This document shows, piece after piece, positions 1-3,724 of a stretch of DNA of 58,912 bases (within the stretch, counting starts at the first letter, position 1; each line of letters starts with the position of its first letter). The notes under the pieces are model-generated. The model ran no database searches. It saw nothing but the letters and a program-made list of their open reading frames with translations, and was not told the DNA's origin. This DNA comes from Gemmatimonadales bacterium (GTDB taxonomy: Bacteria; Gemmatimonadota; Gemmatimonadetes; Longimicrobiales; Gaopeijiaceae): contig REBP01000084.1 in the NCBI GenBank assembly GCA_007692665.1, positions 1 to 58,912 of the forward strand, read 5' to 3'. The position numbers and the translations under genes are program-made.

Positions 1-3000
1 CCGGGCATGCAGGTACTCGGCGAAGGCCTCGGCAAGGCGGTCGGCCAGCGTCTGGGCGAGGATCGCCCGGTAGTCGTCATGGGCCGACCTGAAGCGCTCG
101 GTGATCCGATCCAGCCCGTGCCCCGCCGTGACGGCAAAGGCCCCCACCCAGTCCTGGGGCCCCGACTCCCGGGGGGCCACGAAGTCGGCCAGCGCCATGT
201 TGGGTCGGGGGTCCCCGCGCCCGCCCTTCCGAAACTGCTGCCGGAGGGTGTGGATGCGGGCAATGACCTCGCCGCCGGGTTCCTCCAGAAGCTCGATGTC
301 GTCGCCCACCCGGCCGGCAGGGAAGAGCCCCACCACGCCCCGGGGCGCCAGCTCTCCGCCTGCCACCAGCTGGTCCAGCATCTCCTCGGCGTCGGCCAGG
401 AGCCGGGATGCGGCCTCCCCCACCACCGCGTCGGACAGGATGTCCGGATGGCTTCCTGCCAGCTCCCAGGCCTGGAAGAACGGCGTCCAGTCGATGAAGG
501 GCCGAAGGGTCTCCACCGTAACATCATCGAGGAGGTGGATCCCCGGGCGGCGGGGGCGGGGGGGCGTGTAGTCGGCGGCCTCGGGGCGGAAGGCATTGGC
601 TCGGGCTTCCTCGATGGACAGGAGCGGCCGGCGCTCCCCCCGGTCGGCGTAGCGGGCCCGGACCTCGGCGTACTCGCTCCGCACGCCGGCGACGAAGCCG
701 TCCCGTTCCCGGGGGTTCAGGAGCCGGCTCACCACGCCCACCGCCCGGGACGCGTCGTCCACGTGCACGATCGGGCCGGAGTAGGAGGCCTCGATCTTCA
801 CCGCCGTGTGCGTCCGCGAGGTGGTGGCGCCGCCGATCAGGAGGGGGACGCTGAAGCCCTCCCGCTCGAGTTCCTCGGCCACGTGGACCATCTCGTCGAG
901 GGAGGGCGTGATGAGCCCCGACAGCCCGATCACGTCCACCTCGTGCTCCCGCGCCGCCGCCAGGATCCGGTCCGCCGGGACCATGACGCCCAGGTCCACC
1001 ACGCGGTAGCCGTTACACTGGAGCACCACGCCCACGATGTTCTTCCCGATGTCGTGGACGTCGCCCTTCACGGTGGCCATGAGGACGGTGCCCTTGCCCG
1101 TGGATTCCTGGCCCGCGGATTCCTGGCCCGCGGCAAGCTCCGCCGCCCGGTCCGCCGCCGTCTCCCGCTCGATGTGGGGGACGAGGAGCGCCACCGACTT
1201 CTTCATGACCCGGGCGCTCTTCACGACCTGGGGGAGGAACATCTTCCCGGACCCGAACAGGTCACCCACCCGGTTCATCCCGTCCATGAGCGGCCCCTCG
1301 ATGACCCGGATCGCCCGCTCCGAGAGCTGGCGCACGGCCTCGGTGTCCTCCTCCACGAAGGCGTCGATCCCGTGGACCAGGGCATGGGTCAGGCGGGCCC
1401 CGGGCTCGGCCTCGCGCCACGCCAGGTCCTCGTCCCGGCGGGCCTCCGCCCCCCGCATCCGGTCCGCCAGTTCGGTGAACCGCTCCGTGGCGTCTGCGCG
1501 CCGCTGGAACAGCAGGTCCTCGCAGGCTTCCCGAACCTCGGGCTCGAGGTCGTCCAGCACCGGGAGGGCGCCCGCGTTCACGATCCCCATGTCGAGGCCG
1601 GCCTGCACGGCGTGAAACAGGAAGACCGCGTGGAGCGCCTCGCGCAGTTCGGGGCTCCCCCGGAAGGCGAACGAGAGGTTCGAGATCCCCCCCGAGGTCA
1701 GGGCGTGGGGGCATCGCTCCCGGATCTCCCGCACCGCGTCGAGGAACGCCACCCCGTACCCGTCGTGTTCCGGAATCCCGGTGCCTACCGCGAAGACGTT
1801 CGGATCGAAGATGATGTCGCCGGCGGGGAAGCCCACCTCCTCGGTGAGGATCCGGTACGCCCGCTCGCAGATCGCCACCTTCCGCTCCGCCGTGTCGGCC
1901 TGCCCCTCCTCGTCGAAGGCCATGACCACCACCGCCGCGCCGTACCGCCGAACCAGCTCCGCCTTCCGCCGGAACTCCGCCTCGCCGTCCTTGAGCGAGA
2001 TGGAGTTCACGACCCCCTTCCCCTGCAGGCAGCGAAGCCCCGCCTCGAGCACCTCCCACCGCGAGGAGTCCACCATGACCGGGATCCGCGCAATGTCCGG
2101 CTCCGCGGCCACCAGGCGGAGGAACCGGATCATGGCGGCTTCCGAGTCCAGAAGCCCCTCGTCCATGTTCACGTCCAGGATCTGCGCGCCGCCCTCCACC
2201 TGCTCCCGTGCCACCTCGAGGGCGGTCTCGTAGTCCTCCTCCTCGATGAGGCGCCGGAACCGCCGGGAGCCGGTGACGTTGGTCCGCTCGCCCACGTTCA
2301 CGAAGAGCAGTTCCGGCCCGATGTTCAGCGGTTCGAGCCCTGAGAGGCGGCAGCGGACCGGCCGCTCGTTGGGCGTGCGCGGTGCGACCCCCGCCACGGC
2401 TTCGGCCATTTGCCGAATGTGCTCCGGCGTGGTCCCGCAGCACCCTCCCACCACGTTCACCCACCCCCGGGTGGCGTACTCCCGGATGTGCCCGGCCATC
2501 TCTTCCGGGCCCAGGTCGTAGCCTCCGAACTCGTTGGGAAGTCCGGCATTGGGGTGGCATGACGTGAGGCGGGGTGTGAGGCTGGACAGCTCCTCCACCC
2601 AGGGGCGCAGCTGCGTCGGCCCCAGCGCGCAGTTCAGCCCGATGGAAAAGGGGCGGGCATGGGCCACCGCGTTCACGAAACCCTCGAGGTTCTGCCCCGA
2701 GAGCGTGCGGCCGGAGGCGTCGGTGAGCGTGCCGGAGATCATGACCGGGCGATCCTGGCCCACCGCGTCGAAGACCTCCCGCAGCGCGAAGAGCGCCGCC
2801 TTGGCGTTCAGCGTGTCGAAGATCGTCTCGACCATGAAGAGGTCCACGCCGCCCTCCAGCAGCCCGTGCACCTGCTCGGCGTAGGCGACCCGCAGCGTCT
2901 CGAAGTCCACGTTCCGGAACCCCGGGTCCTCCACCCTGGGCGAGAGGGAGGCGGTGCGGTTCGTCGGCCCGAGGACTCCGCAGACGAAGCGGGGGCGCGA

Positions 3001-3429
3001 CGGGTCCGCGGCTTCCACGGCCGATGCGGCCCGGCGGGCCACCTGCGCCGAAACCCGGTTCATCTCCCTCACCACGTGCGCCAACCCGTAGTCCGACTGG
3101 GCGATGGAGGTGGACGAGAAGGTGTTGGTCTCGACGATGTCGGCCCCGGCCTCCAGGTAGGCCCGGTGGATCTCCTCCACCACGTCCGGGCGGGTCAGCG
3201 ACAGGAAGTCGTGGTTGCCCTTCAGGGGAAGCGGATGGTCGCGGAACCGCTCCCCGCGGTAGTCTTCCTCGGTGAGCTCCCGGCGCTGGAACATGGTGCC
3301 CATGGCACCGTCCAGGACGAGGATGCGCTCGGCCGCGGCGGCCTCCAGGAGGGCGGTGCGGTCCTCGTGCCCGACGGATGGGGGTTCGACGGCTTCGGGT
3401 ACGACGGTTTCAATGGGTCTGGTGGACAT
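1..3429 (-). CDS. metH: Methionine synthase, cobalamin-dependent (5' part; C-terminus beyond window)
   Basis: Transfers the methyl group of 5-methyltetrahydrofolate to homocysteine through cobalamin, making methionine in the cytoplasm. The reading frame gives 1143 residues before the window ends; the family is usually about 1200-1250, so only the end of the reactivation (AdoMet-binding) domain is missing. Domains in order: homocysteine-binding barrel (LDGAMGTM near residue 40, zinc Cys in GLNCA near 265 and in GGCCGT near 328), pterin-binding domain ([11 protein letters not shown]), cobalamin cap and B12-binding domain with DVHDIGKN near 790, then the start of the reactivation domain. The ATG is preceded by GGAGGAGG. 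A linker before the B12 site carries a duplicated AGQES. The leader carries a SAM-II-like aptamer and a terminator, so expression is probably switched off by SAM. Confidence 0.97.
1102..1131. repeat. Perfect 15-bp tandem duplication inside metH
   Basis: GGATTCCTGGCCCGC occurs twice in a row (1102-1116 and 1117-1131). It keeps the metH frame and duplicates five residues in the linker just before the cobalamin-binding domain. Looks like replication slippage in a tolerant linker. Confidence 0.85.
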
Positions 3430-3436
3430 GGAATCG

Positions 3437-3449
3437 TGCCTCCTCCTCG
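3437..3449 (-). promoter_or_regulatory. metH ribosome binding site
   Basis: On the minus strand the run GAGGAGGAGG ends about 9 bases before the ATG at 3429. It fixes the metH start and lies more than 100 bases away from the SAM-II-like aptamer, so the aptamer cannot mask it directly. Confidence 0.7.
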
Positions 3450-3517: not shown

Positions 3518-3550
3518 AAAAAAATCCCCGCACGAGAAGCACGCCGGGGG
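3518..3550 (-). terminator. Intrinsic terminator in the metH leader
   Basis: Minus-strand CCCCG (3549-3545) can pair with CGGGG (3530-3526), followed after one A by seven T (3524-3518). This is one of the few hairpins in the window with a real T-tract. It lies directly after the SAM-II-like aptamer and before metH, as expected for transcriptional attenuation. The 5-bp GC stem is short and the 14-base loop is large, so strength is uncertain. Confidence 0.65.
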
Positions 3551-3607
3551 TTGGCCTTTTAGCGGTTCGGTTTCCCGGGTCGCAATACGCCGCAAATCAC
3601 CCCGAGC
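3551..3607 (-). promoter_or_regulatory. SAM-II-type riboswitch upstream of metH
   Basis: Reading the minus strand from about 3607, the hallmark blocks of the SAM-II aptamer occur in order: P1 5' strand CTCGGG, then GTGATTTG, then ATTGC, P1 3' strand CCCGGG, an A-rich joiner, and GCTAAAAGG. The spacing of GATTTG, TTGC and GCTAAA matches the small H-type pseudoknot known from metA/metX leaders. Its position before a methionine synthase gene fits. CCGGG in the P1 3' strand (3578-3574) can pair with CCCGG of the terminator's first arm (3548-3544), giving an antiterminator. Identified by eye from memory of the family consensus, not by a covariance search. Confidence 0.75.
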
Positions 3608-3724
3608 TCGCAAGCTCGAACTCTCAACATATCATGGAGGCAGGGTTTGCGGCCAGTCCCCCCGCCAGAGCGGCGCATCGACACTCTCGGTGCTGGACGG
3701 GACTTCTGCGACACTGCACCGGGA

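Follow-up and report, generated by a model that had tools for sequence, protein, structure and literature searches.

A SAM-II-class riboswitch of a distinct structural subtype as the probable transcriptional OFF switch of metH in Gemmatimonadota

Riboswitches of the SAM-II class (RF00521, SAM_alpha or metA motif) consist of a P1 helix and a P2 pseudoknot, carry the segments GAUUUG, UUGC and GCUAAA and are mainly known from proteobacteria and Bacteroidetes, where they precede met genes. Putative terminators were found behind many of these elements (Corbino 2005, PMC1273637), most often in alpha- and beta-proteobacteria (Barrick and Breaker 2007, PMC2258182), and the majority of them has been called transcriptional (Huang and Lilley 2018, PMC6061858). 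One example is the transcriptional switch of Sinorhizobium meliloti metZ (Scheuer 2022, PMC9373788), in which a rho-independent terminator, whose folding is predicted to be triggered by SAM, lies behind an aptamer named canonical SAM-II by its authors. SAM-V (RF01826) acts on translation; its P1 has 4 bp and is followed by a 3-bp P3 stem-loop and then by A's lying along the P1 minor groove, as seen in the metY crystal structure (PMC6061858).

The initial annotation of the DNA described here proceeded from the premise that SAM-II elements usually mask a ribosome site, which the four papers do not support. Since terminator-linked SAM-II elements have long been known, the novelty claimed on that ground falls, and the terminator mode is ordinary for this class. 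What is new is a structural subtype with a 5′ hairpin (P0) abutting a 4-bp P1 and with a likely P3, as well as the wide use of SAM-II in Gemmatimonadota. No report of SAM-II in this phylum was found in the open literature, which misses most subscription journals; several relatives exceed the Rfam cut-off and would be annotated automatically.

The window, that is the whole stretch of 58,912 nucleotides analysed, begins with an incomplete metH gene running off the contig end, and its minus strand carries at 3618–3518 a SAM-II-type pseudoknot aptamer followed by an intrinsic terminator, with metH directly downstream. The initial annotation had delimited this element as 3518–3607; it is indeed there, but larger, as it begins with the 5′ hairpin at 3618. 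The features, as read from the sequence in the direction of transcription, are:

3725, minus strand: end of a large open reading frame of 2362 aa, on the same strand as metH and 107 nt before P0
3626–3631, minus strand: putative −10 element TATGTT
3603–3618, minus strand: P0, 5′ hairpin CGAGCU-UGCG-AGCUCG, directly abutting P1 and absent from the SAM-II consensus
3600–3605, minus strand: UCGGGG, proposed antiterminator strand, which would pair with CCCCGG (3549–3544) when SAM is absent
3604–3553, minus strand: aptamer core CGGGGUGAUUUGCGGCGUAUUGCGACCCGGGAAACCGAACCGCUAAAAGGCC
3602–3553, minus strand: span of the pseudoknot aptamer
3577–3602, minus strand: P1, 4 bp, GGGU (3602–3599) with ACCC (3580–3577)
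3598–3594, minus strand: third strand GAUUU
3553–3591, minus strand: P2 pseudoknot, GGC (3591–3589) and UUGC (3585–3582) with GC-U-AA (3563–3559) and GCC (3555–3553)
3569–3576, minus strand: candidate P3, small hairpin GG-GAAA-CC within the loop behind P1, with GAACC next to it
3526–3549, minus strand: intrinsic terminator hairpin CCCCGGCGUGCUUCUCGUGCGGGG, GC-rich, −10.5 kcal/mol, followed by A and T7
3518–3524, minus strand: U7 (T7) tract of the terminator
3439–3446, minus strand: metH ribosome-binding site GGAGGAGG
1–3429, minus strand: metH, cobalamin-dependent methionine synthase (TIGR02082, 1539 bits; PRK09490, 1769 bits), with its ATG at 3429

Rfam models applied at their gathering scores gave zero matches anywhere in the window. 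Of the two models proposed in the initial annotation for the minus strand, SAM_V (RF01826) did not match the leader at E≤10, while RF00521 matched it at 3613–3539 (minus strand) with 21.4 bits and E 0.01. This falls short of the gathering score of 36, which is an annotation threshold and not a biological feature. The standard RF00521 model thus misses the window's form, although in the whole 4.2-Mb genome it matches nothing but this leader at E≤10. Matches of CRISPR-DR29 and SOX2OT in the same leader were dismissed as chance. At E≤1 RF00521 found matches in 37 of 59 relatives' genomes, 13 of them above the cut-off, and the equivalent metH leader in a genome of the same family (L003 in G010) gave a full match of 53.2 bits. 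Control genomes, however, also matched weakly at E≤1 in 8 cases out of 14 (none at E≤1e-4), so weak RF00521 matches alone were not trusted and it is the comparative evidence that counts.

Near-identical counterparts precede metH in L038, L029, L040, L041, L043 and other loci; L028 and L042 were excluded because their matches were judged to be due to chance. Scanning of named genomes for the exact pattern returned 21 loci, mostly from Gemmatimonadota with three from Anaeromyxobacter, and 16 of them precede metH. Non-metH genes follow the aptamer pattern in L049, L050 and L061 (Anaeromyxobacter, Myxococcota), as well as in L054 and L058. A covariance model built from the subtype leader (R1) matched 312 of 395 Gemmatimonadota genomes at E≤0.01, and of the 100 best-scoring loci that were fetched 80 have metH next downstream. 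The source sequences are mostly metagenome-assembled genomes. SAM-II is thereby extended to Gemmatimonadota, mostly before metH among the loci fetched.

Covariation, the absence of which in related genomes had been named in advance as an argument against the element, was counted over distinct loci with anchored columns and found in P1, in P2 and in UUGC/GCUAA. The P1 and P2 pseudoknot appears in the SAM-II order over 102–119 distinct loci, P1 being shorter in the window's subtype. Almost every locus has a paired P1: the fourth pair is U-A in 75, G-C in 18, C-G in 7 and A-U in 1 of 102, so that 101 are paired against 64.9 expected. P2 pairs vary among G-C, C-G and A-U over 119 loci, and within the window's subtype GGC/GCC is replaced by AGC/GCU in L040 and L041. 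In L034 and L036 both sides of UUGC/GCUAA are altered together, to UUGU/ACUAA; these two loci precede a gene whose product starts like S-adenosylmethionine synthetase (name from sequence alone). Judged by its recurrence in metH leaders of many Gemmatimonadota, by compensatory changes in P1 and P2 and by the accompanying terminator, the window's element is not a product of chance.

The third strand GAUUU and the segments UUGC and GCUAAA are present both in the window and in its subtype, and so are the counterparts of the residues U8–U10, A18, U20, U47, A48 and A50 that contact SAM in SAM-V and SAM-II (numbering and roles according to PMC6061858). In contrast to SAM-II, P1 has 4 bp instead of 6, and below it base 3603 faces G3576 in a purine–purine mismatch typical of the window's subtype; a purine–G mismatch at the fifth P1 position, where canonical P1 continues, was registered in 19 of 102 loci. 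The extra hairpin P0 with at least 4 bp is present in 14 of 18 loci of the subtype versus 5.0 expected from shuffles, and in 5 of 5 CCCGG-type loci a hairpin of other sequence occupies the same position, whereas canonical loci show no enrichment (22 of 83 versus 23.1 expected). In subtype f3 (f1–f7 being anonymous family ranks) the automatic test gave 5 of 10, a low score because P1 begins elsewhere there; inspection by eye gave 9 of 10, not counted as tested.

In the window's subtype a P3 like that of SAM-V, though of only about 2–3 bp, is likely. This is suggested by the preservation of GG....CC around different loops: GAAA, GUAA (L029), UGAGAG (L057) and GAACA (L096). Longer stems CGGA/UCCG occupy the P3 position in L150 and L151. 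In another metH-linked variant (L144, L153, L155) P3 is missing and the loop behind P1 is very short, with GGGAACA ahead of GCUAAA. With SAM-V the window's leader shares the clear 4-bp P1 and the SAM-contacting residues, and its candidate P3, with the short strand containing A's behind it, would resemble the metY structure (PMC6061858). It differs in that the SAM-V model finds no match, P3 may have only 2–3 bp and a terminator is present instead of a ribosome site in or beside the aptamer. Such intermediate aptamers could reveal the relation between SAM-II and SAM-V and the way in which one aptamer takes different antiterminators; a single homologous series with SAM-II at one end and SAM-V at the other is conceivable but rather doubtful.

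Taken together, these data argue for a riboswitch of the SAM-II class that turns metH OFF at the level of transcription, a reading to which we assign a probability of about 0.87. That SAM is the ligand we infer from the conserved contact residues and the gene context. A divergent subtype, scoring below the Rfam threshold and altered in P1 and in the loop, might have turned to another ligand such as SAH or methionine, but all reported SAM-contact positions are kept, among them the uridines that face the sulfonium charge, and another ligand is very unlikely. The metH enzyme uses methylcobalamin and supplies methionine, from which SAM is made. Feedback by SAM therefore suits its pathway, which also speaks against another ligand.

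As stated in the initial annotation, the T7 terminator directly follows the aptamer and the metH ribosome site is about 100 nt away from the aptamer; it lies beyond the terminator. Terminators within 75 nt were found in 84 of 119 distinct loci versus 62 of 357 dinucleotide shuffles (17%); most of them begin 5–9 nt after GCUAAA, and position and form are conserved in relatives. The scan overlooks hairpins with poor U tracts: such tracts are present in L047, L057, L070 and L096 (4 of 18 distinct subtype members), while L092 and L095 were scored as lacking a terminator, yet tails resembling GGGGUUUU are visible there. The placement of a terminator between P2 and the gene agrees with what is described for SAM-II (PMC1273637, PMC2258182), and a promoter-like box just before P1 is likewise shared with this class. 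In the window this box, TATGTT, would set the transcript start approximately at the base of P0, and a TA-rich −10-like box occurs near the same place in most subtype relatives. In leaders with a canonical P1 (e.g. L079–L154) the 20 nt ahead of P1 hold a conserved box, CAAYNG (for instance ACAAYYGA), approximately at the expected transcript start; it was registered in 45 of 91 loci versus 3.0 expected from shuffles and is missing where P0 is present.

Given the orientation of the 2362-aa reading frame and its distance from P0, the terminator could serve this gene too. That it belongs to the upstream gene, with the aptamer acting on translation or idle, is very unlikely, since no homologue of the upstream gene precedes the leader in any subtype relative tested, while the aptamer and the terminator stay together at near-constant spacing though the upstream gene varies. 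Moreover, a promoter-like box separates this gene from the aptamer, and the ribosome site lies about 100 nt away, past the terminator. The initial view that the metH leader combines a SAM-II-type aptamer with an intrinsic terminator is supported by the subthreshold RF00521 match, the relatives, the covariation and the repeated presence of the terminator.

SAM-dependent termination, the direction in which the switch works and its antiterminator are inferred. CCGGG in the 3′ strand of P1 (3578–3574) is complementary to CCCGG in the terminator arm (3548–3544), just as was originally noticed, and mutually exclusive states had been proposed on this basis. That the terminator arm can pair with the aptamer, the two states excluding each other, is supported, but the partner is probably another one. 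Nearest-neighbour folding cannot treat pseudoknots, and the window's folds were made without the pseudoknot. Folding of the partly made transcript placed 6.9 of 8 bases of the terminator's 5′ arm in upstream pairs; the partner was P0 and the 5′ strand of P1 (CUCGGGG), while in unconstrained folds its pairing with the 3′ strand of P1 had a probability of 0.00 and none was formed with the following loop. When forced, the antiterminator with the P1 3′ strand gave −31.1 versus −35.7 kcal/mol for the terminator state. For L038, both strands of which are identical to the window's, UCGGGG/CCCCGG amounts to 6 bp and −10.9 kcal/mol. Exchanging terminator arms among the loci of the subtype worsened the match to the P1 5′ strand (1 of 2000 permutations) and, less clearly, that to the P1 3′ strand (32 of 2000); as the sequences compared are related and not independent, these counts are support and not probabilities. 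Loci with A at the mismatch purine often have a matching U in the arm (L074, L076, L077). Folding and comparison thus favour the P1 5′ strand over the 3′ strand as the probable antiterminator.

According to the scheme that we propose, under SAM scarcity the P1 5′ strand and the P0 3′ arm would pair with the 5′ arm of the terminator, which, being occupied, could not enter the hairpin, and RNA polymerase would read into metH. Binding of SAM in the P2 triplex pocket would close the P1–P2 pseudoknot and consume the P1 5′ strand inside the aptamer, so that the terminator (3549–3518) would fold and transcription would stop. Compared with S. meliloti metZ this would be the same logic at another gene and in another phylum, and it would probably explain the control of methionine synthase in a little-studied group.

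The terminator may, on the other hand, be a constitutive attenuator independent of the aptamer, with no mutually exclusive pairing, as in S. meliloti metA, where, as reported in PMC9373788, no dependence on SAM is predicted for the terminator behind SAM-II. Variation of the antiterminator pairing between subtypes is in line with this possibility: the arm's partner is L1 in GCCGC types and the 3′ strand of P2 in metH leaders of f3, so none of the antiterminators holds for all subtypes. Such independence is nevertheless unlikely, because the terminator arm matches the P1 5′ strand of its own locus better than that of other loci and is engaged upstream in the folds of the partly made transcript, and the switch with mutually exclusive pairing is preferred. 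In L088, L091, L093, L116, L118 and others the P1 3′ strand is repeated wholly or partly after GCUAAA (GCCACG or GCCAC); both copies are potential partners of the P1 5′ strand there, and an alternative helix that excludes P1 and P2 alike may form.

Outside the window, another arrangement was observed at SAM-II loci of the non-metH type. In 11 of 20 such loci scored from the same taxonomic order (L002, L005, L006, L007, L008, L010, L014, L033, L035, L156 and L157) the aptamer is followed, about 47–284 nt after GCUAAA, by a reading frame of 30–55 aa rich in Met, often in Met-Cys, such as MMVHAPTMMMMMMRMTGPPRG... or MGCHACTMCMCMCCMRAF...; shuffled regions yielded such frames in 4 of 2000 cases. 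No paper on a Met-rich leader peptide behind SAM-II was found in the open literature, and this arrangement may be more novel than the metH riboswitch itself. Its layout resembles that of a ribosome-mediated attenuator of the trp type, here for methionine, placed in tandem behind the SAM-II terminator. A hairpin resembling GGCUCUCCC..GGGAGAGG overlaps the end of the peptide, and a second strong terminator (CCUCUCC..GAGAGG and a T tract) precedes the gene. The downstream genes resemble those of homoserine dehydrogenase, aspartokinase, threonine synthase and O-acetylhomoserine sulfhydrylase, all named from sequence reading only.
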